Source: Haloplasma contractile
GTDB taxonomy: Bacteria > Bacillota_I > Bacilli_A > Haloplasmatales > Haloplasmataceae
Assembly (NCBI GenBank): GCA_016841945.1
Contig: JAENYC010000007.1
Span: 1 to 64,000, forward strand
Length of the DNA: 64,000 nt
Reading direction: 5' to 3'
Every line of letters begins with the position of its first letter. Positions within the stretch are counted from its first letter, which is position 1. Shown one piece after another: positions 9,072 to 35,638 of this stretch. Position numbers and translations under genes: made by a program. The notes under the pieces are model-generated. The model did not search any database. It was not told where the DNA came from and saw only the letters and a list, made by a program, of their open reading frames with translations.

Positions 9072-9226
9072 CAACCAACTTTCAATTTGACTTAATATTA
9101 TTTTACCAAAAAATAGTATTTTTAGATAGATTATATCTATTATTTACGATATTTAAGGCGTTTTTTCTAATATTTAATCAACTTTTTAAGGAATTTGTCA
9201 TATATTTTAATATTGAGGTGATCATT

Positions 9227-9646
9227 TTGGCTGTTGTTCCTTATACAGAAAAAGATGTAGACTTATTAGCTAGACTCATGCGATCTGAGGCTGAATCTGA
9301 CGGTAAGTTAGGGATGTTACTAGTTGGAAATGTTGGCATCAATCGTGTGTTAGCTCGTTGTCTAGATTTTGAAAATATCCGTTCTATACGTAATATGGTT
9401 TTTCAATCACCTGGTGGTTTTGAGGCCACTCAAAAATCATATTTTTATCAACCTGCTCGAGAAATTGATAGACGTTTAGCTAGACGAGCGATTGCAGGTG
9501 AGCGCTTTGTACCTGCTCAAAGAGCATTATGGTTCTACAATCCTTTCGGCCAAAGTTGTAGAGCCCAATGGTTTGGTCAATGGAACACTGGTGTATTTAA
9601 AAGCCACTGTTTCTATGCGCCATTAGCATCAGAAAATTGTTATTAA
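9227..9646 (+). CDS. cwlJ: Spore cortex-lytic cell wall hydrolase CwlJ
   Basis: A 139-residue protein of the SleB/CwlJ hydrolase domain, acting on spore cortex peptidoglycan during germination. It is the domain alone, without the SleB signal peptide and binding repeats, as in CwlJ. Seen: MAVVPYTEKD at the N-terminus, the catalytic-helix region ARLMRSEAESDGKLGMLLVGN, a YFYQ block, RALWFYNP, and KSHCFY near the end. The start is TTG 9227, 6 nt behind GAGGTG, giving the MAVV beginning expected from Bacillus CwlJ; GTG 9218 lies within the binding site. gerQ follows after 11 nt. GerQ is required for CwlJ placement in the Bacillus coat, so the pair is a functional unit. Confidence 0.93.
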   Translation: MAVVPYTEKDVDLLARLMRSEAESDGKLGMLLVGNVGINRVLARCLDFENIRSIRNMVFQSPGGFEATQKSYFYQPAREIDRRLARRAIAGERFVPAQRALWFYNPFGQSCRAQWFGQWNTGVFKSHCFYAPLASENCY

Positions 9647-9657
9647 AGGGGGATTTT

Positions 9658-10200
9658 ATGAGTTCTTATCAAACACCAACCTATCCACAAATGGATAGCA
9701 TTCAACCACAAACACCATCTTCAACAATCGGTTATCCACAACCTGGTTTTCAATCACAACAACCAACATATCCTCAAACACCAGGGTACCAGCAACCTCC
9801 ATATTTACAACCAGGTTTTCAACAACCTACAGGATTTACAGGATATGTGCCATCTTTACACACAGGTTTTATTCCTGAACAAGAATCTTATATTGAAAAC
9901 ATATTAAGATTAAATAAAGATAAAATTGCCACAGTATATATGAATTTTGAAAACTCTCAATGGGGAAGTAAGATTTTTAAGGGAGCTATTGAAGCAGCTG
10001 GTAAAGACCATATTATTTTAAGAGATCCAGTTACCAATATGCGTTATTTATTGTTAATGATATATCTTAACTACATCACTTTTGATGAAGAAATAATTTA
10101 TGAATATCCTTTCGCAGCACCTAATATTCCAACACCTTATCCACAGACTCAATTACGCAAAAAAGATACCAAAGAACAAGATCAATCTAAAAAGAAGTAG
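9658..10200 (+). CDS. gerQ: Spore coat protein GerQ
   Basis: 180 residues. The first 75 are Gln/Pro/Tyr/Thr-rich low complexity. The C-terminal domain carries the GerQ signature: SYIENILRLNKDKIATVY, KIFKGAIEAAGKDHIIL, RDPVTNMRYLLLMIYLNYI and TFDEEI. In Bacillus GerQ is a coat protein cross-linked during spore maturation and needed to hold CwlJ. The start ATG 9658 follows AAAGGGGG; the longer in-frame extension at 9637 lies inside cwlJ and has no binding site. Transcribed with cwlJ and followed by a terminator. Confidence 0.93.
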   Translation: MSSYQTPTYPQMDSIQPQTPSSTIGYPQPGFQSQQPTYPQTPGYQQPPYLQPGFQQPTGFTGYVPSLHTGFIPEQESYIENILRLNKDKIATVYMNFENSQWGSKIFKGAIEAAGKDHIILRDPVTNMRYLLLMIYLNYITFDEEIIYEYPFAAPNIPTPYPQTQLRKKDTKEQDQSKKK

Positions 10201-10219: not shown

Positions 10220-10892
10220 CTATTTGCCAATTGATGGGTTCTAAATGATGTTTCTTTAAAAAATCATTGGTTTCTGAGAAATGTTTACATCCAAAAAATC
10301 CTCTATAAGCTGATAAGGGTGATGGATGCACTGATTTTAATATACAATGCTTTTGATTAGTAATTAAACTTTCCTTATTTTTAGCATCATTTCCCCACAA
10401 TAAATAAACAATCGGTTGCCTCTTCTTATTTAATAAACTTATGATTGTATTTGAAAATACTTCCCACCCCTTATTCCTATGAGAGGTAGGTTGACTATCA
10501 CGAACAGTAAAGACAGTATTTAATAATAAAACACCTTGCTTAGCCCAAGATATTAAATTACCATGCTTGGGATATTCAATTCCTATATCATTCACTAATT
10601 CTAAATAGATATTATGCAATGATTTAGGTATTTTAACATCTCTAGGTACAGAAAAACATAATCCATGAGCTTGATTCTCTTGATGATATGGGTCTTGTCC
10701 TAAAATCACGACTTTCACATGATGAAATGGTGTTAGTTTTAATGCACTAAATAACTGATCATAATCAGGATATATTTTGTGATGTCTATATTCATGTTCA
10801 ACAAATTTCATCAGTTTACGAAAATATGGTTTTTCAATTTCTTCTTCTAATAATTGATCCCAATCATTACCAAAATGAATCTTATTCTTCAT
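10212..10892 (-). CDS. ung: Uracil-DNA glycosylase, family 1
   Basis: At 226 residues this is the standard UNG length. It removes uracil from DNA to start base-excision repair. Both active-site motifs are intact: GQDPYH (catalytic Asp at residue 67) and HPSPLSAYRGF with the catalytic His near residue 188. LLNTVFTV and LLWGNDAK, lining the uracil pocket, are also present. It overlaps the upstream Gx-type membrane-protein gene by 11 nt, so the two are one transcript. Confidence 0.96.
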   Translation of the reverse strand: MKNKIHFGNDWDQLLEEEIEKPYFRKLMKFVEHEYRHHKIYPDYDQLFSALKLTPFHHVKVVILGQDPYHQENQAHGLCFSVPRDVKIPKSLHNIYLELVNDIGIEYPKHGNLISWAKQGVLLLNTVFTVRDSQPTSHRNKGWEVFSNTIISLLNKKRQPIVYLLWGNDAKNKESLITNQKHCILKSVHPSPLSAYRGFFGCKHFSETNDFLKKHHLEPINWQIEK

Positions 10893-11454
10893 TGATTAAT
10901 TGCTCCAAGAATATAGATTTTTCATCTTTTTGAGTAATAGTTTTAAATACTTGTCCTTTATCTAAATATTTTCTTAACACAGAGACCACATAACCAACAA
11001 ACATACCCGTTCCTATTCCTATCGGTATTAACCAAAATAAATTAAAAATAGCACCTATTCCATAATAAATCGTTAATACGATGATTTGCCCTATATTATG
11101 AGCAATTCCACCAGCAACACTTATCCCAACCAAACTGACTTTATTTTTCACTGTTGCCAATAATGTGTACATAACTAGAAAACTTAATAACGTACCTGGA
11201 AACCCAATAGTAAAGGTCACCAACCCTCCAATTAATAAGCCTACTAATAAAGATTTCAACACAATTAATAATAAAGATTCAGTAAACCTCAAATAATAAA
11301 GACCAGTTAAAATCACTATATTTGCTAGTCCAATCCTTACACCTTGAGCAGGTGCAAAAGAGGATAAAAATCGATCTATAATACCTAAAACAACACTTAA
11401 TGCCACTAAAAGAGCTATAAATACCAATTTTTCTGTTGTTTTTCGATTGCCCAT
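10882..11454 (-). CDS. Gx transporter family protein (Hpre_diP_synt_I type)
   Basis: 190 residues with five to six membrane segments: KLVFIALLVALSVVLGIIDRF at the start, then RIGLANIVILTGLYYL, SLLVGLLIGGLVTF, GFPGTLLSFLVMY, VSVAGGIAHNIGQ and a C-terminal segment. This matches the family annotated as Gx transporter or heptaprenyl diphosphate synthase component I, a fold close to ECF-type S components; the substrate is unknown. I chose ATG 11454, 8 nt behind AAAGGA; ATG 11463 overlaps the binding site. The C-terminal 30 residues are a polar tail. Operonic with ung. Confidence 0.8.
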   Translation of the reverse strand: MGNRKTTEKLVFIALLVALSVVLGIIDRFLSSFAPAQGVRIGLANIVILTGLYYLRFTESLLLIVLKSLLVGLLIGGLVTFTIGFPGTLLSFLVMYTLLATVKNKVSLVGISVAGGIAHNIGQIIVLTIYYGIGAIFNLFWLIPIGIGTGMFVGYVVSVLRKYLDKGQVFKTITQKDEKSIFLEQLINEE

Positions 11455-11561
11455 AGCTCTCATCCTTTCTATTTTTATACCTTTTCCATTATATCATATT
11501 TTATTTAAAAATAATATTTGTTATAATATAGTAAAGAAATCCAATTATAAGGAGGAATAAA

Positions 11562-16198: not shown

Positions 16199-16912
16199 TT
16201 ATATCCATTTACACCATCTCTTCTCTAATATATCAATCCCAATAAAGAGTAGATAACCAATTAAGCTCAGTTCAAATATACCCGTAAACATGTTTAAGTT
16301 ATTCACTACCACATGACTATCAATGTAATATCCTAATCCGCTTCCAATACCGCGTGTTTCACTTAAATACAATACCGCAATAGATGTTCCAATACTGATT
16401 CTTAATGTTGATAATAAATTGGGTAAAATCGCAGGAAAGAGTATTTCTTTATACATTTCTTTTTTATTGAGTGATAAACTTTTAGCATGATAGAACACTT
16501 CTTTTGGAATTGTCTTGACGGCATCTTTAACCGTGATAATAACTGGAAATACAACTATAATGAAAATTAGTGTTGTTTTCATCCAAAACATAGAAGCAAA
16601 AATCACAATAAGAACTTGAACCAAAGCCGATTTTGGTATCGGATAAATGGAATAGACAATTGGGTCAATGATTTGGTTCACACGGCTAGATAGTCCCATA
16701 TACATCCCAATATGTATTCCTACCAAAACAGATAGAATTAAACCCGTTAATAAAAGGGAAAGAGATTCTAAAGTGGGTTCTAACAATTGTTCAGGAAAAA
16801 TATTGAAAAAATTTATGATGACATCATGAGGATAAGGGATTTGTTGATGGTAGATGAATGAAATGAAATACCATATGATAAAAATGATGATAAAACCTAA
16901 AATCTTTTTCAT
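16199..16912 (-). CDS. ABC importer permease, SsuC/TauC/ThiX type
   Basis: 237 residues with six membrane segments. The EAA-type loop is visible as VFYHAKSLSLNKKEMYKEILFPAILPNL, the site that meets the ATPase. This is the COG0600 family (nitrate, sulfonate, taurine, hydroxymethylpyrimidine importers). I chose ATG 16912, 8 nt behind GGAG, instead of ATG 16948, which lies inside the ATPase gene. Third gene of the importer operon; the ATPase stop is 5 nt upstream. Confidence 0.88.
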   Translation of the reverse strand: MKKILGFIIIFIIWYFISFIYHQQIPYPHDVIINFFNIFPEQLLEPTLESLSLLLTGLILSVLVGIHIGMYMGLSSRVNQIIDPIVYSIYPIPKSALVQVLIVIFASMFWMKTTLIFIIVVFPVIITVKDAVKTIPKEVFYHAKSLSLNKKEMYKEILFPAILPNLLSTLRISIGTSIAVLYLSETRGIGSGLGYYIDSHVVVNNLNMFTGIFELSLIGYLLFIGIDILEKRWCKWI

Positions 16913-16917
16913 AACCA

Positions 16918-17643
16918 TTACTCCAATCTTTTTCTTACTTCTATACATTTTTCATAAAAAGCAATTGATTTTTTGGCTGATTTATCTCCAAATAATTTTT
17001 TATTATCAATTATCTCATCCATTTTCCCATCTTTCATCACAATAATTTTTTGGCCTAGATATACCGCTTCTTCAATATCATGTGTCACCACAATAGAACA
17101 TAATGGATATTTTTCATAGATACTCAATAATAAATCTTGAAAATTCTCTTTTGTAAATGCATCTAGTGAGGCAGAAGGTTCATCAAATAATAAAACATCA
17201 GAATCTAATACAAGTGTTCTCGCAATTGCCACACGTTGTTTTTGTCCACCACTAATATTTTTTATATATTGAGCTTTAAGGTGTTTTATTTCAAGATTAT
17301 CAAGTACTTGATCAATCTTATGATCCATTTCTTTTTTAGGAGTATGACGAGCTTTTAATCCCAAACTACAGTTCCCATATACCGTCTTCCATGGAAATAA
17401 TCCTCCATTTTGAAATATCATCCCCGTTTGACGCCTTACATCTAATAATAACTGATTGTTAATTAAAATTTCTCCACTAACAGGTTTTAACAGACCAGCA
17501 AGCAGTAATAATATTGTTGTTTTTCCACAACCAGAACGACCGATTATACTGATTTTTTCATCCTTATCTAATTCCAAATTAATATGGCGTATAACTGGTT
17601 TATTTTCTTCATATGAGAAATTTAAGTTGTTCATTTTTATCAT
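16918..17643 (-). CDS. ABC importer ATPase, SsuB/TauB/ThiZ type
   Basis: 241 residues. Walker A is GRSGCGKTT, the Q-loop is FQNGGLFPWKTV, the signature is NISGGQKQRVAIART, Walker B is VLLFDEPSASLD and the switch His is in VVTHDIEEA, all intact. The FPWKTV motif is typical of the nitrate/sulfonate/taurine group. It lies between the binding-protein gene and the permease gene. A hairpin with a T-run separates it from the binding-protein gene and probably lowers its expression relative to that gene. Confidence 0.92.
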   Translation of the reverse strand: MIKMNNLNFSYEENKPVIRHINLELDKDEKISIIGRSGCGKTTILLLLAGLLKPVSGEILINNQLLLDVRRQTGMIFQNGGLFPWKTVYGNCSLGLKARHTPKKEMDHKIDQVLDNLEIKHLKAQYIKNISGGQKQRVAIARTLVLDSDVLLFDEPSASLDAFTKENFQDLLLSIYEKYPLCSIVVTHDIEEAVYLGQKIIVMKDGKMDEIIDNKKLFGDKSAKKSIAFYEKCIEVRKRLE

Positions 17644-17662
17644 GATTTCACCTCTATGTTTT

Positions 17663-17688
17663 TAAAAAATGCCATCTTTAGATGGCAT
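17663..17688 (-). terminator. Intra-operon attenuating terminator
   Basis: ATGCCATC pairs with GATGGCAT around a 4-nt loop containing the binding-protein stop codon, followed on the minus strand by six T. It lies between the binding-protein gene and the ATPase gene, where partial termination gives more binding protein than transporter. Confidence 0.75.
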
Positions 17689-18649
17689 CTAACTGATAAG
17701 GAAATAATATATCTGTTAATTGATAATCATTTGTGATTAGCTTTTTGTCCTTACACCAATTGAGTACATCTAAAAATGTCTCTTCACTTGGATTCTCTAA
17801 TGGATGAAAAATCTGTTCGTCAATTAAATCTATACTATCTTCAGGTATAATAACATGTTCAGAATTTGTAATAATATGTTTATAATCTTCATAATGACCT
17901 GTCATCATTTCACTAATGGCTTCATTTATCGCTAAGTTCATGTTTTTAATCATTTTATAATTTCTTTCAGCGAATGTTTTTTCTACTACGAAACAGGTCA
18001 CAAATACATCTGAATCTATATTATTCCATAATTCTAAACCACCCTCATTTACCATCAAAGATGGAAAGGGTTCAGGCATAATAGCCATATCAATCTCATC
18101 TTGTTTTAACAAAATATAACGGTCAGGAACAGAAGGAATCCCTACTTTTGTATAGATTTTATCTTGATTACTATTATTATAAACATTTTCTTCCACATAA
18201 GTCATGTTGTTTTCTTTCATCACTTGGTCAACCAAATAATCAACCACTGTATTTTCAGACACACCAATCTTTACTTTATTTATTTCGCTCAGATTTGAAT
18301 AGGGATAATTCGCTCTTGTGACTAAACGAAATTCTTCTTCTGTTTGTGATGTCACAACGATTTCTTTTCCAGAATTCAAATACAATAAAGCTGCAACTAA
18401 ATCGGTACTTACCGCATTTATTTTATTTCCTTGAAACGCTGTATCCCTATCTTTTGCGCTACTATATAATTCTAATTTAACATTCACACCATATTTTTCA
18501 AATATTTTATTTTCCTCCGCATAATAATAGGGGACAGATAATAAACTCTTCATTAAACCAATGTGAAGCGTCTCTTCTTTTTCTTTTTTACAACCTGTAA
18601 AAACAAATAATAATCCAAATAGTACTACTAATGTGAAAACCTTTTTCAT
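17678..18649 (-). CDS. Substrate-binding lipoprotein, NMT1/THI5-like
   Basis: 323 residues. A lipoprotein signal ends FVFTGC, with the modified Cys at residue 20 followed by a Lys/Glu-rich spacer. The mature protein has the periplasmic-binding fold of the NMT1/THI5-like or SsuA group: HIGLMKSLLSVPYYYAEE, FEKYGVNVKLELY, and a middle hinge with VKIGVSENTVVDYLVDQV. First gene of the importer operon. The gene faces ubiD-ubiA-ubiX across a 113-nt divergent region. No TPP riboswitch precedes it, which speaks against pyrimidine uptake for thiamin. A link to quinone precursor uptake is an inference from position only. Confidence 0.8.
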   Translation of the reverse strand: MKKVFTLVVLFGLLFVFTGCKKEKEETLHIGLMKSLLSVPYYYAEENKIFEKYGVNVKLELYSSAKDRDTAFQGNKINAVSTDLVAALLYLNSGKEIVVTSQTEEEFRLVTRANYPYSNLSEINKVKIGVSENTVVDYLVDQVMKENNMTYVEENVYNNSNQDKIYTKVGIPSVPDRYILLKQDEIDMAIMPEPFPSLMVNEGGLELWNNIDSDVFVTCFVVEKTFAERNYKMIKNMNLAINEAISEMMTGHYEDYKHIITNSEHVIIPEDSIDLIDEQIFHPLENPSEETFLDVLNWCKDKKLITNDYQLTDILFPYQLDAI

Positions 18650-18762
18650 TTTTTACCGCTCCTTTTTAATACATACTGAATTATATCATAAATGAAGAAA
18701 AATGTTTATAGATATTATACGTTTTATGTTATAATCAAATAGAAAAACGGAGGTAGAATAAG

Positions 18763-20628
18763 ATGGCTTATAAAAATTTACATACATTTATTAAAAAACT
18801 AAAAGAATTAGATGAACTTATTGAAGTTCATGAAGAAGTAGACCGTGATTTAGAAATTACAGAGATTGCCAATCGGATTATGAAATCAAAAACAGAAAAT
18901 AAAGCATTACTTTTTCAAAATATTAAAGATTCACCCTATCCACTTCTCATTAATTCCTATGGTTCTTTAAAAAGAATGGCGTTATCACTAGAAGTAGATT
19001 CCCTTGAATCAATCGCAAATGATATAAAAGATTTTATGGATATATCTAATTATAAAAGCTTACCGAAACAAATAAAAGCTTTACCAAAATTATTGAGATT
19101 ATACTTCTCTTTTCCACATAAAGTAAGAAAAGCACCCTGTCAAGAAGTAATAGAAGAACCCGATTTAGATACCATTCCCATCATTAAGTGTTGGCCAGAA
19201 GATGGTGGACGTTTTTTCACACTCCCACTTGTTATCACAAAAGATCCTGAAACAAATCAACAAAACATGGGGATGTACCGGATGCAAGTCTATGATAAAA
19301 AAACAACAGGTATGCATTGGCATTGGCATAAGGATGGTAGAGAGATTTACGATAAATATCGTAAATTAGGCATCACGAAAATGCCGGTTAGTGTAGTCGT
19401 TGGTTCTGACCCAGCAACAGTCTATGCCTCAACTGCTCCACTTCCAAAAATGGTAGATGAAATGATGTTTGCATCCTTTCTAAGAAGAAAATCCTTACCC
19501 ATTGTAAAATGTGTGACCAATGATTTATATGTACCAGCAAACAGTGAATTTGTGTTTGAGGGTTATGTTGATATTAATGAAGATTACCGTTTAGAAGGAC
19601 CTTTTGGAGACCATACCGGATATTACTCTTTACCTGATATGTATCCTGTTTTTCATATTGAAAAGGTTACAAGAAAGAAAAACCCTATTTATCATGCCAC
19701 AATTGTCGGTATTCCACCGATGGAAGATTGTTATATGGCACTGGCAACAGAAGAGATTTTTTTACCTCTTATGCAAATGCCAGTACCAGAAATCGTTGAC
19801 CTACACATGCCATTTGAAGGCGTTTTCCACAACTGCGCGGTTACATCTATTAAAAAACAATTTCCAAAACATGCCCATAAAGTCATGAACTCATTTTGGG
19901 GGACTGGGCAAATGATGTATCAAAAAATGGTATGTACCGTAGACGAAGAAAAAAACATCAAAGACTATCATGATATATTTTGGACAGTCATTGATACTGT
20001 AAACCCAGCTGAAGATATCCTCATCACAGAAGGACCTTTAGATGCTTTAGACCATTCATCTAAAAAACCTTTCTTTGGTTCTAGATTAGGAATTGATGCC
20101 ACAACTAAATTTAAAGAAGAAACAAACTATGATTTACATAAGGAAAGAGAGTTATTATATTATAAAAATATCAATAAAGAAAAATTAGTTAAAACCATAA
20201 AAGAACAATTTAATGCCATATTAGATATCCGTTTACCACAAAATGATAAATTCTATAAAGTACTTCTTGTAAAAATAGATAAAAAAACAGACCAAGATGT
20301 TAAACTATTAAATAATTTATTACGTCAAAATAAACATTTTAAGCATTTTAAATGGATTGGGTTATTTGATCAATATACCGATATTTATAATAGTAGTCAA
20401 ACCTTCTGGCGATTATTTAACAACATAGATGCCAAAAGAGATTTACATTTTCATCAAATACAAATTGAAAAAAATGAGTTCACCGTTCTTACCATAGATG
20501 CAACAAGAAAACTACCGAGTGAAAATGGTAACCGAGAGTGGCCTAATGATATTGTAATGACAGAAGAAATAAAAAATAAAGTCAGTAAGAAGTGGTTAAA
20601 ATATGGTTTTAATAACGAAAATATTTAA
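18763..20628 (+). CDS. UbiD family decarboxylase, MqnL-like (menaquinone)
   Basis: 621 residues, of the longer UbiD type (E. coli UbiD is near 497) annotated as menaquinone biosynthesis decarboxylase. UbiD enzymes use prenylated FMN, made by UbiX, to decarboxylate aromatic acids. Seen: the metal/prFMN region GMYRMQVYDKKTTGMHWHWHKDG, GSDPATVYASTAPLP, and the catalytic acidic block EDYRLEGPFGDHTGYY. With ubiA and ubiX behind it, the likely substrate is a prenylated dihydroxynaphthoate, as for MqnL. The start ATG follows CGGAGGTAG. The ubiA frame overlaps its end by 26 nt. Confidence 0.88.
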   Translation: MAYKNLHTFIKKLKELDELIEVHEEVDRDLEITEIANRIMKSKTENKALLFQNIKDSPYPLLINSYGSLKRMALSLEVDSLESIANDIKDFMDISNYKSLPKQIKALPKLLRLYFSFPHKVRKAPCQEVIEEPDLDTIPIIKCWPEDGGRFFTLPLVITKDPETNQQNMGMYRMQVYDKKTTGMHWHWHKDGREIYDKYRKLGITKMPVSVVVGSDPATVYASTAPLPKMVDEMMFASFLRRKSLPIVKCVTNDLYVPANSEFVFEGYVDINEDYRLEGPFGDHTGYYSLPDMYPVFHIEKVTRKKNPIYHATIVGIPPMEDCYMALATEEIFLPLMQMPVPEIVDLHMPFEGVFHNCAVTSIKKQFPKHAHKVMNSFWGTGQMMYQKMVCTVDEEKNIKDYHDIFWTVIDTVNPAEDILITEGPLDALDHSSKKPFFGSRLGIDATTKFKEETNYDLHKERELLYYKNINKEKLVKTIKEQFNAILDIRLPQNDKFYKVLLVKIDKKTDQDVKLLNNLLRQNKHFKHFKWIGLFDQYTDIYNSSQTFWRLFNNIDAKRDLHFHQIQIEKNEFTVLTIDATRKLPSENGNREWPNDIVMTEEIKNKVSKKWLKYGFNNENI

Positions 20629-21523
20629 ACGAATATATTTATATGGGGAGATGGTGATGTTTAGCCATACCCTGTTTTCACTTCCATTTGCGTTAATCAC
20701 GATGTTTATCGCAGCAAATGGCCTACCAAATCAAACAATCTTACTATTTGGATTAATTGCTTTAATAGGTGCGAGGACTGGTGCTAATGCATTTAATCGT
20801 TATGCAGATAGATTAATAGACGCTAAAAATCCTCGTACAAAGACGAGGCATCTTCCGACTGGTAAATTAAAAAGTATTGAGCCACTATTAATAACCCTCA
20901 TATCATATAGTGTTTATATATATGCTGCATACCATATTAATGAACTTTGTTTTTTTCTTTCACCTATCCCTATTATCATTTTTACCCTTTATCCCTATAC
21001 GAAACGGTTTACATCGCTCTGTCATCTCATTCTTGGCATAGCTTGTGCCTTTGCTGTACTAGGGGCATGGATGGCAGTTAGAAATGAATTATTATTCATA
21101 ACGATAGAAAACAATCAACTCAAGTTTATTCAAATCAATTATATCCCCGTCATACTTTTTATTGCTGTTGCTTTATGGAATGCTGGTTTTGACACAATCT
21201 ACGGTACACAAGATATTGAATTCGATAGGAAACATAACATTCATTCAATCCCTGCAAAATTTGGATTTAAGAATGGACTAACAATCGCAAAATTATTTCA
21301 TTTTACGATGATACTACTCTTAATGACACTTTATTTTATTGTACCTGAATTTTCATTCGTCTATCTTATTGGGATAGCGATTAGTTCACTATTATTTTTA
21401 TTAGAACATAAAATTGTAAAACCTCATAACCCCATTCTGATGAAACTTGCTTCTTATAAACTGAATCAACTTATCAGCTTATCCATTTTTACCTTTGCTT
21501 TCCTTGATCTATTTGTATTTTAG
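20603..21523 (+). CDS. UbiA family prenyltransferase, MqnP-like
   Basis: 306 residues with eight to nine membrane segments. The first Asp-rich motif is NRYADRLID (NxxxDxxxD) followed by KNPRTKTRHLPTGKL, and the second is YGTQDIEFDRKHNIHSIPAKFG; these bind Mg2+ and the prenyl diphosphate. It attaches a polyprenyl chain to an aromatic ring at the membrane. The N-terminus including FSHTLFSLPFALI fits the putative 4-hydroxybenzoate/1,4-dihydroxy-6-naphthoate group. ATG 20603 is kept since the extra N-terminal residues match the family. Middle gene of ubiD-ubiA-ubiX. Confidence 0.88.
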   Translation: MVLITKIFKRIYLYGEMVMFSHTLFSLPFALITMFIAANGLPNQTILLFGLIALIGARTGANAFNRYADRLIDAKNPRTKTRHLPTGKLKSIEPLLITLISYSVYIYAAYHINELCFFLSPIPIIIFTLYPYTKRFTSLCHLILGIACAFAVLGAWMAVRNELLFITIENNQLKFIQINYIPVILFIAVALWNAGFDTIYGTQDIEFDRKHNIHSIPAKFGFKNGLTIAKLFHFTMILLLMTLYFIVPEFSFVYLIGIAISSLLFLLEHKIVKPHNPILMKLASYKLNQLISLSIFTFAFLDLFVF

Positions 21524-21537
21524 AAAGGACCATTCAT

Positions 21538-22110
21538 ATGAAAAAGTTTATTGTTGGATTAACCGGTGCATCGGGTACCATCTATTTTAAAAGATTAATA
21601 GAGACATTAAAGTTTATAAAATGTGAATTATATGTAGTTGCGACTCAAACAGGTGAAGAAGTCTTTGAGTTTGAGTTAAAACAAAATTTTAAAACCTATC
21701 TACAATCCCTAAACTACAAATACTTACATCTTTGTAAAATAGACGATATGTTTCATAAAATCGCAAGTGGTTCTTTTCAAGTAGATGGTATGATTATATT
21801 ACCATGTAGTATGGGGACCATAGGAAAAATAGCACATGGAACAAGTGATCATTTATTAATAAGAGCTTGCGATGTTCAACTAAAGGAACAAAAAAAGACG
21901 CTCATAGCTTTTCGAGAAGCGCCCTTATCACTGATTCATCTCAATAATTTAACCTTATTAAAACAAGCAGGAGCAATTATTTATCCCCTTGTTCCCGCTT
22001 TTTATCATCACCCAAAATCACTTGATGAAATCATCAGTCAAATAATCGGTCGTATCCTAAGTTATTTTGATATAGAAATTGATGAACATATAAAATGGCA
22101 AGGTATTTAA
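21538..22110 (+). CDS. Flavin prenyltransferase UbiX (MqnM-like)
   Basis: 190 residues. It makes prenylated FMN from FMN and dimethylallyl phosphate, the cofactor of the UbiD enzyme encoded two genes upstream. Seen: the GLTGASGTIY flavin-binding loop at residues 8-17, ILPCSMGTIGKIAHGTSDHLLIRACDV and the REAPLSLIHLNNL segment, all canonical. The start follows GAAAGGACC by a few bases. Last gene of the operon, followed by a strong terminator. Confidence 0.93.
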   Translation: MKKFIVGLTGASGTIYFKRLIETLKFIKCELYVVATQTGEEVFEFELKQNFKTYLQSLNYKYLHLCKIDDMFHKIASGSFQVDGMIILPCSMGTIGKIAHGTSDHLLIRACDVQLKEQKKTLIAFREAPLSLIHLNNLTLLKQAGAIIYPLVPAFYHHPKSLDEIISQIIGRILSYFDIEIDEHIKWQGI

Positions 22111-22809: not shown

Positions 22810-24081
22810 TTAGATTTCATCTAAAACAATATCTAATTTACCAATCATATCTTCTATATTCTCTTCAGTAATGACAAGTGGGGGTTGAAATGCAAGTACA
22901 TTTCGACCAAATCCATTTTTACCAATCAATATCCCTTTATCCTTCATCTTCTCTAATATAATATCTGTCTTCTCAGTTGCAGGTGAACCATCTTCTTCTC
23001 TTAGTTCGACACCAAGCATAAGACCTTGTCCACGCACTTCTTTAATGCGTGGGTGTTTTTCTTTTAAAGCTTCTAGTTTGTTTTTTAATAATACACCTAG
23101 TTTTTCTGCACGTTGTTTTAACTGATGTCTTTCTATATAATCTAATACAGCTAAAGCTGTTTTTGTTGATACCGCATTTCCTCCAAGGGTAGATGCGGAT
23201 GGTTTGGTAAATACAAAAGCAATATCATCTGTTGTACAAAAGGCACTAATTGGAATACCATTACCTAATGCTTTAGCTACCACTATGATATCAGGTACAA
23301 CATCAAAATGTTCAATCGCAAACATTTTACCCGTTCTTGCAAACCCTGTTTGTACCTCATCAATAATCATTAAGACATTATATTTTTCGCATAATTTTTT
23401 TACCTTTTTAAAATACCATTTAGGTGGCATGATAATCCCACCATTCCCTTGAATAGCCTCAGCGATAAAACCTGCAATTTTATCTCCACATTTTTTTAAT
23501 AAATCCTCTATTTCTTGTACGGATTGTTTAGCGGCTTCTTCGCAATTTAAATTTATATCCCAAGGTCTTTTTACCATATGAAATTTTTCTTTATCTAAAA
23601 ATGGATCTGTTCTCCACATAGAAATTCCAGTTACATTAGTGGTTAAATATGTTCTACCATGTAGTCCACCTTCAAGATAGATAAATTCTTCTTTGTTTGT
23701 ATAGAGTCTAGAAAGTAACATCGCCCCTTCACTTGCTTCACTACCTGAATTACAAAAGAAGCTTCTTTTAATATTACCAGGCATGATGGTTGCTAATTTT
23801 TCAGCTAAATCAAACATCGGTTGTGTTAAATAAATCGTTGTTGTATGCTGTAAAGTTTGAAGTTGTTCAATGGTTCGTTTTGTAATTTCAGGATTACAAT
23901 GTCCACAATTAGCAACAGATACCCCCGCAAAAAAATCTAAATATCGTTTATTATCCTTATCATAATAATATTGCATGTCTCCTCTTACAATTTGAGGAGG
24001 ATTTTTATAAAAATGATATGAGCAAGGCATATAATATTCTTTTTTCTTTTCAACTATTTTTTCAGGGCCAATATAATTCAT
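22810..24081 (-). CDS. Class III aminotransferase (PLP-dependent)
   Basis: 423 residues. The fold-type I class III signature is clear: FFCNSGSEASEGA (cofactor phosphate binding), LHGRTYLT, the Asp in MIIDEVQTGFARTG, and the Schiff-base Lys in VVAKALGNGIPIS. It resembles the 4-aminobutyrate/alanine-glyoxylate 2 group; the amino donor and acceptor cannot be fixed. The gene begins one base after the stop of the U32 gene upstream, whose last codons (GAGGTG) supply its binding site, so translation is coupled. Confidence 0.88.
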   Translation of the reverse strand: MNYIGPEKIVEKKKEYYMPCSYHFYKNPPQIVRGDMQYYYDKDNKRYLDFFAGVSVANCGHCNPEITKRTIEQLQTLQHTTTIYLTQPMFDLAEKLATIMPGNIKRSFFCNSGSEASEGAMLLSRLYTNKEEFIYLEGGLHGRTYLTTNVTGISMWRTDPFLDKEKFHMVKRPWDINLNCEEAAKQSVQEIEDLLKKCGDKIAGFIAEAIQGNGGIIMPPKWYFKKVKKLCEKYNVLMIIDEVQTGFARTGKMFAIEHFDVVPDIIVVAKALGNGIPISAFCTTDDIAFVFTKPSASTLGGNAVSTKTALAVLDYIERHQLKQRAEKLGVLLKNKLEALKEKHPRIKEVRGQGLMLGVELREEDGSPATEKTDIILEKMKDKGILIGKNGFGRNVLAFQPPLVITEENIEDMIGKLDIVLDEI

Positions 24082-24082
24082 T

Positions 24083-26017
24083 CTATTTCACCTCATGATT
24101 GAGTGCACCTAATGTGTACCCTTGATAATTTGGTTTTAATCTTTTAACGGCTTCTTTTAAAGAAATTTCTTTATCCACATATTTTCTATACACCTCTACA
24201 ATTATCTCTAATTGTTTCAATGAATAGGTTTGTGCTTCTATCCTAACACAGTCTAACCCAATTTGAGCCAAATCATCCATCACTTCTATTAAATTAAGCT
24301 CTTTTGTATTATGTAAATGATTCCGACTCCTGTCATCCATATACACAGGGTATTCACCTGTTTCATTTTTTAGTGCTAATATCTGATTATCAATATATTG
24401 ATTATCTTCATACGCTATAACATCAAAAGCTTTGGTATTTTCATATAGGTCATGTTCTAAATGCATAACATCAAGAAGACCATGAACTATGATTTCTGTT
24501 TTCACAGGTGACTGATGAATGGTTTGACATAAATCATCAATTGGCATTTCTATTGATAATGCACTCTGTATTAAATCATATTTTTGATAAAAATATAGCG
24601 CTTTTTCATTATAGATATTTAATGCATAGTCCCCAAACAGTACATAATTAAACTTTTGAAAGAAAGCAAGAGCCCCTAAATTCGATACACTAATACCATC
24701 TAGTTCAAAATGATTTTGACTTAATAAATGGTTGTAGCGTTCAAAATCTAGTTCATCACATATTTTTGGCGTTCCTAAAATAATCTTTGAGTTCCCTTTA
24801 CCACTGCATATTGATTTTATCTCCTCAATACTAAATGGTTTATCTGGTTTAAAAACATTGCCTGATAGAATAACAGCATCAACACCATGATGAATACATA
24901 ATTTAGCTTGTTCTATATTATTTACTTTAACCGATAAACTCAATTGTTTTCTTTTTGATTGGTACTTTTTAATTTTAGTACGAATTTTATTTATTTTATC
25001 GGATGATTTTTCTTTTTCTTCTGTTGGTTTTGAGAACATTTTTCCAGTGCTATAAAAAATACCCGTTCCTTCATATCTTGTATTAATATTTTTCAGCCCT
25101 GGTTTAGAAAATGCATAACACGTAGATAAATCTCTTTTTCTACTTTCAACAATTTTATATAAGTCTTTTTGACGGTCAAAATGAAGGGGATCATTGATGT
25201 ATCTATCAATAGCATCTCCATACCAATTGACTAAATTTACAATAAAATCTTTTTCTCTCATTCTACCTTCTATTTTAAAAGAAGTAACTCCCGCTTCAAT
25301 CATCTCAGGAAGAAATTCATACATACACATATCTTTTGCGGCAAGTGGGAATTTAGGGTCATACACACCCCCATCTTTTTTGGCCTTATACCACCATCTA
25401 CATGGTTTTAAACATCTTCCGCGATTACTACTCATACCAAACAGTAACGAACTAAAATAACATTGTGACCCATGTACACTGCACATATCACCATGGGTAA
25501 AGTATTCATATTCCATATTCGGCACATTCATTTTAAAGTATCTAACAGTATCTAAAGAAAAATCACGTGAAACAACCACTCTTTTAACGCCTATTTTATC
25601 CAATGCTTTAACCGTTTCTAAATTGTGAACATTCATCATGACAGAAGCATGTATATTTAATGATAAATCATATTCCTTAATTAATTCAATAATTGCCATA
25701 TCCTGAACAATGATTGCATCAGGTTTCACAACATCTGATAAAAATCTTAAATATGAAACTGCATCTTCTAAGTCTTTATGACTATTCAAATTATTTATCG
25801 TCACATAGGCTTTTTTATCAAATTGATGCGCTAATTTAACGGCTTCTACTACTTCTTCATCACTTAAATTGTAACCCGGCCTAATCATACGCATATTTAA
25901 AATACGTCCACCAAAATAAATCGCATCACACTTTGTCTTTACTATTTCTTTAAATATTTCAAATGTACCGGCAGGAGCCAATAATTCAATTTTTTTTTGA
26001 TTAAAATATCGTGACAT
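24083..26017 (-). CDS. U32 family protein (peptidase U32 / RNA-hydroxylation type)
   Basis: 644 residues. The N-terminal U32 TIM-barrel region shows IELLAPAGTFEIFKE, DAIYFGG and the cysteine cluster CSVHGSQCYFSS ... SNRGRCLKPCRW, which in studied members (RlhA, TrhP, UbiU) binds an iron-sulfur cluster. Long members like this commonly carry a C-terminal extension. Known roles of the family range from rRNA/tRNA hydroxylation to oxygen-independent quinone hydroxylation, so the role here is open. It is coupled to a class III aminotransferase gene one base downstream. Confidence 0.85.
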   Translation of the reverse strand: MSRYFNQKKIELLAPAGTFEIFKEIVKTKCDAIYFGGRILNMRMIRPGYNLSDEEVVEAVKLAHQFDKKAYVTINNLNSHKDLEDAVSYLRFLSDVVKPDAIIVQDMAIIELIKEYDLSLNIHASVMMNVHNLETVKALDKIGVKRVVVSRDFSLDTVRYFKMNVPNMEYEYFTHGDMCSVHGSQCYFSSLLFGMSSNRGRCLKPCRWWYKAKKDGGVYDPKFPLAAKDMCMYEFLPEMIEAGVTSFKIEGRMREKDFIVNLVNWYGDAIDRYINDPLHFDRQKDLYKIVESRKRDLSTCYAFSKPGLKNINTRYEGTGIFYSTGKMFSKPTEEKEKSSDKINKIRTKIKKYQSKRKQLSLSVKVNNIEQAKLCIHHGVDAVILSGNVFKPDKPFSIEEIKSICSGKGNSKIILGTPKICDELDFERYNHLLSQNHFELDGISVSNLGALAFFQKFNYVLFGDYALNIYNEKALYFYQKYDLIQSALSIEMPIDDLCQTIHQSPVKTEIIVHGLLDVMHLEHDLYENTKAFDVIAYEDNQYIDNQILALKNETGEYPVYMDDRSRNHLHNTKELNLIEVMDDLAQIGLDCVRIEAQTYSLKQLEIIVEVYRKYVDKEISLKEAVKRLKPNYQGYTLGALNHEVK

Positions 26018-34631: not shown

Positions 34632-34665
34632 AGTTTATAATGAGCAATCATTATAAACTTTTTTT
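34632..34665 (+). terminator. Terminator behind cotJC
   Basis: AGTTTATAATGA pairs perfectly with TCATTATAAACT around GCAA, then seven T. Confidence 0.88.
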
Positions 34666-35638
34666 ATCTCTTTAAAGAACAAGTATCTCCCATTATCTCA
34701 ACCCCACCGTTGTTACTTACGCCTTGAAATAAAATTCTTTCTCTATACAAATCAATTAACTCAACACGGACATCACTTATTATACTTTCTTTTATATCAC
34801 GTGCCATTTTCCCATGAATTGGACCTTTTATAATCACAAAATCATCAAGATGACATCTCGTCTCTATATTTAATTGATAATCATCTTTTTCAAATGTAAG
34901 TACTACATTATTTTTATTAAATGATATATTCATTTTACTTCGATTGATTGATGTAAACTTATAGACCTTTCCATTCAAAACAAAGGCTGTTAAAAAGCCG
35001 TTGAAGTGATAAAACCACAATGGAACCCGACCTAATGACACTGATACAGCCACTTCTTCATTTAAGAAATTATTGGCTTGTACCCAAACATAACTTTCAG
35101 GAAAGCGACTTCCCCAATTTTTTTCAATATATACTTTTCCACCTGTAAAATCTATCTCTTCATCATTCACCATCAATTTACCAATTAAATTACCTGTTAA
35201 ACAACAAACCTGACTATAACATTCCATAAATATTAAATAATTATAAAAACCCATACTGCCAGGATTAAAAATTGAATCAGGCCATTTTATGCCATCCACA
35301 ATTCTCAATGTTCCCACTAATTGTATATTTTCATCATAATGATTCAAACTAATTTCTTTTAATGAAAAATGATTATGGTTAATCTTTATACAAAACGGTT
35401 TATGTTGAAACTTAAAACTATCTTTTGTAAACTTTAAATATAGAGGTTTGTTATTTCCATTTAATACTTGTATAAATGATTCTCCTTCTTCAACAATATG
35501 ACCTTTAATAATACCAGGAATAAACGCTAATACATATTTGTTATCTTTATCTTGTATTTTATAATACCAACCTTCAAAATAGTTTTTCTTTTTTCTTTCT
35601 CCATGGTATAAATCTGGATTTAATATCTTCTTTAACAT
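34664..35638 (-). CDS. Tocopherol cyclase-like protein
   Basis: 324 residues. The family pattern of tocopherol cyclase-like proteins is visible: NYFEGWYYKIQDKD near residue 19, FNPGSMGFYNYLIFMECY in the middle, EKNWGSRFPESYVWVQAN near residue 170 and a beta-rich C-terminal half. Plant members cyclise tocopherol precursors; bacterial members are uncharacterised and there is no tocopherol pathway here, so the substrate is unknown. The start ATG follows GGGAGGTAAAGG. It converges with the cotJ operon, with no partner gene. Confidence 0.75.
   Translation of the reverse strand: MLKKILNPDLYHGERKKKNYFEGWYYKIQDKDNKYVLAFIPGIIKGHIVEEGESFIQVLNGNNKPLYLKFTKDSFKFQHKPFCIKINHNHFSLKEISLNHYDENIQLVGTLRIVDGIKWPDSIFNPGSMGFYNYLIFMECYSQVCCLTGNLIGKLMVNDEEIDFTGGKVYIEKNWGSRFPESYVWVQANNFLNEEVAVSVSLGRVPLWFYHFNGFLTAFVLNGKVYKFTSINRSKMNISFNKNNVVLTFEKDDYQLNIETRCHLDDFVIIKGPIHGKMARDIKESIISDVRVELIDLYRERILFQGVSNNGGVEIMGDTCSLKR

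Follow-up and report, generated by a model that had tools for sequence, protein, structure and literature searches.

Introduction

Why does a bacterium whose genome seems to lack the early steps of menaquinone synthesis keep genes for the last steps beside an importer? The question is raised by a six-gene block in Haloplasma contractile, which lies in the first 64,000 nucleotides of contig JAENYC010000007.1 (assembly GCA_016841945.1), the stretch called the window here. A putative ATP-binding cassette (ABC) importer (16199-18649, minus strand) diverges there across 113 nt from genes resembling mqnL, mqnP and mqnM (18763-22110, plus strand). We consider the block, with a probability of roughly 0.7, to be a system for quinone-precursor salvage, in which dihydroxynaphthoate would be taken up, prenylated and decarboxylated. 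A sequence-only reading of this DNA had already proposed that dihydroxynaphthoate or a relative is imported and only the quinone finished, and the apparent absence of the early genes and the co-occurrence of the importer with the terminal genes support that proposal.

The papers cited here were drawn on in excerpt (titles, openings of abstracts and passages of open-licence PubMed Central, PMC, articles). In those of a 2016 genome survey, menaquinone-precursor transporters are said to need prediction and then validation (PMC4746308); the excerpts of a 2017 study of quinone-dependent gut bacteria state that no such transporter had been described (PMC5738691), those on Lactiplantibacillus expect unidentified uptake routes (PMC10746273), and the parts of PMC13386864 seen mention no such importer. 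Judged from such excerpts, the open-licence PMC literature yielded no named menaquinone-precursor importer. Among the papers listed there for Haloplasma physiology, none dealt with this organism.

Gene content of the divergent block

At full length, the UbiD protein of the window exceeds the curated cut-off of TIGR03701, the model named 'menaquinone biosynthesis decarboxylase', and it matches the UbiD structure 2idb of the PDB (5.1e-100), with the EGPFGDHTGYY region aligned; the UbiX protein likewise matches the PDB UbiX structure 6m8v (1.6e-39). The UbiA protein passes only the subfamily model TIGR01475, falls below all three MqnP-specific models (239, 212 and 198 bits against cut-offs of 430, 420 and 375), and is named MqnP-like by context. 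The sequence-only equation of UbiD, UbiA and UbiX with MqnL, MqnP and MqnM therefore holds for the first and the last, whose MqnL and UbiX models are passed, and is left at family level for the second. The reading frames of mqnL and the mqnP-like gene share 26 nt. A second, partial UbiD match is present at the C-terminus of the window MqnL and of those of genomes G028, G050, G102 and G104 (about 610-640 aa), most MqnL proteins of the control genomes described below being shorter (roughly 480-530 aa).

On the other strand, a type II-fold lipoprotein, a permease and an ATPase together make up a binding-protein-dependent ABC importer of the NMT1/SsuA class. Coordinates and Pfam/NCBIfam matches agree with the three-gene NMT1/THI5-type importer, set across a 113-nt divergent gap, that had been described from sequence.

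Table 1. Features discussed in the text, with the main block first.
Feature	Position	Strand	Remark
Importer permease	16199..16948	-	BPD_transp_1 60 bits
Importer ATPase	16918..17643	-	ABC_tran 120 bits
Substrate-binding lipoprotein of importer (NMT1/SsuA class, own subfamily)	17678..18649	-	NMT1_2 32.9 bits (cut-off 24.7)
Divergent control region	18650..18762		113 nt
Outward -10 element	18680-18685	-	Kept in four species; also in consensus promoter scan
Outward -10 element	18730-18735	+	Kept in four species
MqnL (UbiD family decarboxylase), 621 aa	18763..20628	+	TIGR03701 618.8 bits (cut-off 495.9)
MqnP-like prenyltransferase (UbiA family)	20603..21523	+	TIGR01475 269 bits (cut-off 180.8)
MqnM (UbiX, flavin prenyltransferase)	21538..22110	+	TIGR00421 185 bits (cut-off 108.9); NF004685 196 bits (cut-off 188)
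Class III aminotransferase	22810..24081	-	Like genes at importer loci of other lineages (association only)
U32 family protein	24083..26017	-	Like genes at importer loci of other lineages (association only)
Hpre_diP_synt_I (PF07456) membrane protein	10882..11463	-	Same family adjoins polyprenyl synthase in locus L020 (possible link)

Early menaquinone genes in the window genome

The genome is a draft of 3.43 Mb in 73 contigs, rated 99% complete, and absences were called from profile searches of it. MqnA/D (PF02621) gave no match, MqnC (TIGR03699) reached at best 46 bits against a cut-off of 428, and the best MenB match scored 137 bits against 342.7; MenF, MenD, MenC and MenE were not searched for. 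These results fall the way that the check suggested by the sequence-only reading would require for salvage, and the genome seems to be without the early menaquinone steps.

Conservation among near relatives

MqnL was over cut-off in 8 of the 100 genomes searched, the window's own included. The same divergent importer block is present in all four MqnL-bearing genomes of the window's family (again counting the window's own), and an alignment of the gap across these four revealed two outward -10 elements conserved between species. Because every MqnL-bearing genome of the family keeps the block and its -10 elements are conserved, the arrangement is more than chance, and the block could be regulated from the shared gap. 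A consensus promoter scan, weak alone, counted 50 promoter-like sites in the region covered, where 38.9 were expected. In two genomes of a second family (G028 and G050) the genes run on one strand in the order MqnL-MqnP-MqnM-substrate-binding protein (SBP)-ATPase-permease, followed by a PF21758 protein. Small proteins of this proteasome-assembly-chaperone-like family lie beside MqnL in loci L018 (4414-4782) and L019 (4069-4461), where they are over cut-off, and in L028 (6441-6821), where the call is by similarity; we assume that they may be UbiD helpers like LpdD.

Linkage across phyla

A binding-protein alignment scan of species genomes, using two peptide patterns, kept 80 of 92 loci and is not a census. 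Family membership was assigned to 51 of the 80, comprising 49 scored against a 28-member profile and two (L062 and L076) accepted without a scored full open reading frame. MqnL- or MqnP-like genes accompany the importer in 27 of the 51 family loci and in none of the 29 others; L072 and L081 additionally hold shorter UbiD pieces below the counting threshold. The adjacency to MqnL/MqnP is found in Haloplasmataceae, Clostridia, Spirochaetes and Chloroflexi, and gene order varies: many Clostridium carry MqnL-P-M-SBP-ATPase-permease, two whole Spirochaete loci (L061 and L071) have the interleaved order SBP-MqnL-MqnP-ATPase-permease, and Chloroflexi place MqnL and MqnP upstream of SBP-ATPase-permease. 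A metagenome-assembled genome (MAG) labelled Calditrichales shows MqnL-MqnP-SBP-ATPase, then U32 and aminotransferase genes (by eye), then the permease. Its locus (L034) clusters with Clostridia on the binding-protein tree, which could reflect mislabelling, contamination or transfer.

The importer also accompanies the other type of terminal enzyme. A Tissierellales MAG has the order polyprenyl synthase-SBP-ATPase-permease-MenA-like-MenG, in which the MenA-like protein scores 204 bits (cut-off 277) and MenG, the demethylmenaquinone methyltransferase, passes its model (334 bits, cut-off 235). This locus also holds a reductive dehalogenase (205 bits, cut-off 160) and a gene that looks TatC-like by eye. 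We searched 42 importer or MqnL genomes; 34 of them came from the 80 loci, and this search did not extend to the genomes of the other family loci. MqnC was over cut-off in none of the 42 and MenB in one, whereas MqnL was over cut-off in 24 and MenA (TIGR00751) in 13, with both in three. Ten genomes thus had MenA and no MqnL over cut-off, and MenB was over cut-off in none of these. The remaining eight (G100, G105, G109, G116, G118, G121, G129 and G131) each have some candidate for a terminal step, be it below threshold, split, broken, adjacent, or above the cut-off of a different MenA-type model (G105 and G129), so that an MqnL, MqnP or MenA candidate, whether full, partial or below threshold, occurs in every one of the 42. 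The single MenB-positive genome, G116 (Clostridium sp. OS1-26; L044 and L160), has a MenB of 437 bits, men-like genes in L160 (by eye) and an MqnL frame broken by a stop.

MenA without MenB was found in Dysgonomonas-type Bacteroidota, a Porphyromonas species and a Deferribacteraceae MAG; in three of the eight Dysgonomonas-type loci inspected, a porin-like gene follows the permease. Atopobacter phocae combines the importer with two MenA/DmkA-type prenyltransferases over cut-off and a cytochrome bd gene, together with a PplA-like protein (175 bits, cut-off 325) and an oxidoreductase, both under cut-off.

Two sets of weak matches were rejected in these searches. Five of 41 importer or MqnL genomes had PF02621 matches (25-41 bits, four over the Pfam cut-off of 26) that were read as other binding proteins rather than MqnA/D, because in the control genomes MqnA/D reaches 174-271 bits at full length, and two fragments of it reach 86 and 95; the one of the five that was inspected (L154:7584-8630) matched SsuA-type models. 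The MenB-like matches, none of which passed the cut-off (31 to 208 bits), were provisionally taken for other members of the crotonase family.

Association with lack of the early genes

As a control we used the phylum of Clostridium gasigenes, in which MqnL was over cut-off in 105 of 398 genomes (completeness of at least 90 requested), and took the first 80 of the 105 in the order of their labels. MqnA/D was found at E 1e-12 in 53 of the 80, and MqnC was over cut-off in the same 53. The importer profile split these genomes cleanly, 51 scoring at least 270 bits and none falling between 125 and 270. Where MqnA/D and MqnC are lacking, 26 of 27 genomes carry the importer family, 18 of them no farther than 12 kb from MqnL; where they are present, 25 of 53 carry it, 7 of them at this distance (odds ratio 29, Fisher p 5.6e-6, the p value being only a guide as species are non-independent). 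The control was centred on G101, which was chosen for having the importer and which contributes its binding protein (L028) to the profile; leaving G101 out gives 25 of 26. Co-occurrence with terminal quinone genes across phyla, a check that the sequence-only reading had suggested, is thus borne out, and the importer goes along with lack of the early genes as well.

In 45 of the 53 MqnC-bearing control genomes a single PF02621 gene was found at E 1e-12, which in L135 and L137 lies between MqnE- and MqnC-like genes. MqnA or MqnD seems to be missing or diverged in most MqnC-bearing control genomes.

The binding-protein family

In a tree of 67 proteins the family sits on a starred branch apart from the outgroup, save for the long-branched stray L074, which joins the clade, scores just 108 bits and was left uncounted as a member. 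According to the starred branches of this tree, made by a quick method and with 15 open forks, the MenA-linked label must have changed three or more times within the family. This label ('men') was given to L037, L066, L067 and L068; the genome of L067 has MqnL only below cut-off (203 bits). With the truncated L065 excluded, all 57 sampled members have Arg177 and Trp298, and 56 have Arg68, in both partner types alike; none of the three residues occurs in the eight outgroup proteins. A positively charged site of this kind would suit a carboxylate. A lipobox-like motif, defined by a loose pattern, is found in 48 of the 57.

A structure predicted for the window protein (predicted local distance difference test, pLDDT, 91) has as its closest PDB folds SsuA, CmpA/NrtA, TauA, Thi5 and PqqT, which binds pyrroloquinoline quinone (PQQ), and MqnD as well (Z 20.1). 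Scores include an E value of 1.1e-17 for 2x26, Z 28 for CmpA and Z 25 for PqqT (9b1u), with 9-15% identity in structural alignment. The predicted fold does not fix the ligand.

Other features of the window

U32 and/or class III aminotransferase genes stand beside the importer/mqn locus in Haloplasmataceae, Clostridia, the Calditrichales-labelled MAG and a Spirochaete (window 22810-26017; L023 2609-5818; L033 12497-15716; L034 11531-14946; L061 6833-8719; L028 5037-6323). Those in L028, L034 and L061 and the L033 aminotransferase were identified by eye, and the L033 U32 from a model match. The window U32 protein is below cut-off for the TrhP and UbiU models. Elsewhere the window, from a Haloplasmataceae-type genome, encodes a tocopherol-cyclase-family protein (PF14249, 87 bits, cut-off 26.6; 34664-35638) and, at 9218-10200, the spore coat protein GerQ (129 bits, cut-off 89) with a cell-wall hydrolase that stays below the SleB cut-off at 40 bits.

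Discussion

In the salvage that we propose, the lipoprotein would capture external dihydroxynaphthoate, which the permease and ATPase would carry into the cell; MqnP would then attach the polyprenyl tail, and MqnL, with prenylated flavin from MqnM, would strip the remaining carboxylate to yield demethylmenaquinone. We infer transport, substrate and reaction order from the gene content. For the window genome, 1,4-dihydroxy-6-naphthoate is the likeliest substrate, since MqnL is needed only if a carboxylate persists after prenylation. This compound is the substrate assigned to MqnP, MqnL and MqnM in the excerpts of PMC4746308, which leave the order of prenylation and decarboxylation open. MenA-type relatives would take 1,4-dihydroxy-2-naphthoate.

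Several observations weigh against salvage. The sequence-only reading had asked for menaquinone-dependent enzymes; cytochrome bd (PF01654), the sole quinone-using enzyme searched for, is absent from the window genome. In 24 of the 51 family loci neither MqnL nor MqnP was found at the set thresholds, several of these being short contigs. Among the near relatives, G082 keeps a divergent binding protein close to MqnL and has no ATPase or permease in the 19 kb inspected, and G058 has MqnL and no importer in the 18 kb inspected. One of the 27 control genomes without early genes has no importer, and in eight the importer and MqnL are on different contigs or over 12 kb apart. Nearly every control genome without the early steps has the importer, but so do many that possess them, and it is not solely a mark of auxotrophy. 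Finally, the excerpted literature contained no mention of external 1,4-dihydroxy-6-naphthoate.

That half or so of the control genomes with early mqn genes keep the importer also favours the view that it takes a different compound (a flavin or thiamine precursor, a sulfonate or an upstream futalosine intermediate), as do its nearest solved folds, which bind sulfonates, bicarbonate or nitrate, thiamine precursors and PQQ. We think this unlikely, given that the family residues are unlike those of the outgroup. Uptake of a flavin or thiamine precursor was set aside as leaving the MenA-type members unexplained, a flavin role for UbiD and UbiX mismatching the MenA-type genomes without MqnL; import of an upstream futalosine intermediate was set aside too, since such compounds require MqnC or MqnD, and the searches for MqnA/D and MqnC gave no convincing match in the 42-genome set. 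Chance or housekeeping proximity, with an ordinary importer lying near mqn genes in a few lineages, would explain why some family members adjoin apparent mutL and miaA genes (by eye) or other unrelated genes, but it is very improbable: the adjacency recurs in varied gene orders and phyla, 25 of the 51 family-bearing control genomes have the importer within 12 kb of MqnL, and the partner type switches repeatedly on the tree. The occurrence of relatives in unrelated contexts, which the sequence-only reading had named as a point against itself, holds in part, in that some keep the importer away from mqn genes, whereas all 42 searched genomes retain an MqnL, MqnP or MenA candidate.

A further possibility is that the importer feeds 1,4-dihydroxy-2-naphthoate to a second prenyltransferase, with mqnL, mqnP and mqnM doing other work or sharing the compound. 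Elsewhere in the window genome (C66; L153:9134-10147) there is a MenA/DmkA-like prenyltransferase of 189 bits (NF004752, cut-off 289), which could use the 2-naphthoate too and so also counts against salvage as we propose it, and G028 has a MenA-family protein over cut-off (333 bits). The 2-naphthoate is a growth factor, being required for growth of Porphyromonas pasteri according to the excerpts of PMC9704088. We nevertheless regard this as quite unlikely, as the importer is linked to MqnL-MqnP genes in many genomes, often in one gene run. Salvage of dihydroxynaphthoate through the neighbouring terminal enzymes remains our preferred explanation.

The block resembles several known systems and differs from each. 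The excerpts of PMC4746308 describe the same three enzyme families as the terminal MqnP-MqnL-MqnM of the futalosine (Mqn) pathway, but the window genome has no MqnA/D and no MqnC over cut-off, and sets an importer beside the terminal genes. Dihydroxynaphthoate-dependent Porphyromonas and Lactiplantibacillus have kept late quinone genes, lack early ones and need an outside quinone or precursor for growth or electron transfer, and the excerpts name no importer for them (PMC9704088, PMC10746273); they use MenA and the 2-naphthoate, whereas the window has the enzymes for the 6-naphthoate, and the Porphyromonas species and Dysgonomonas in our set have this importer family.

With the NMT1/SsuA-class importers (SsuA, TauA, CmpA/NrtA, PqqT and ThiY, which we take to be the thiamine-precursor relative) the block shares fold and three-gene make-up; its binding protein is set apart by its own starred branch, the family-specific Arg68, Arg177 and Trp298, and quinone-gene partners. 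Flavin-based extracellular electron transfer loci of the Listeria type offer another comparison. In G082 the region with MqnL and the binding protein also encodes a polyprenyl synthase, an FMN_bind lipoprotein and an Ndh2-like pyridine-nucleotide oxidoreductase (in our reading), and Atopobacter phocae unites importer, PplA-like protein, such an oxidoreductase and two MenA/DmkA-type prenyltransferases, but the PplA and oxidoreductase matches are below the NCBIfam cut-offs, and no locus of this kind came to light in the window genome.

In summary, the binding-protein family ranges over Bacillota and relatives, Bacteroidota, Deferribacterota, Spirochaetota and Chloroflexota. We give even odds to the broader proposition that it is the first recognised importer family for menaquinone ring precursors, feeding MqnP-MqnL-MqnM with the 6-naphthoate or MenA with the 2-naphthoate, and that it implies an unnoticed trade in 1,4-dihydroxy-6-naphthoate among anaerobes. 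The family is a concrete candidate for the missing precursor transporters; it may mark likely quinone auxotrophs from sequence and would predict growth factors for hard-to-grow anaerobes. If the proposal is true, exchange of 1,4-dihydroxy-6-naphthoate would take place beyond that of the already studied 2-naphthoate.

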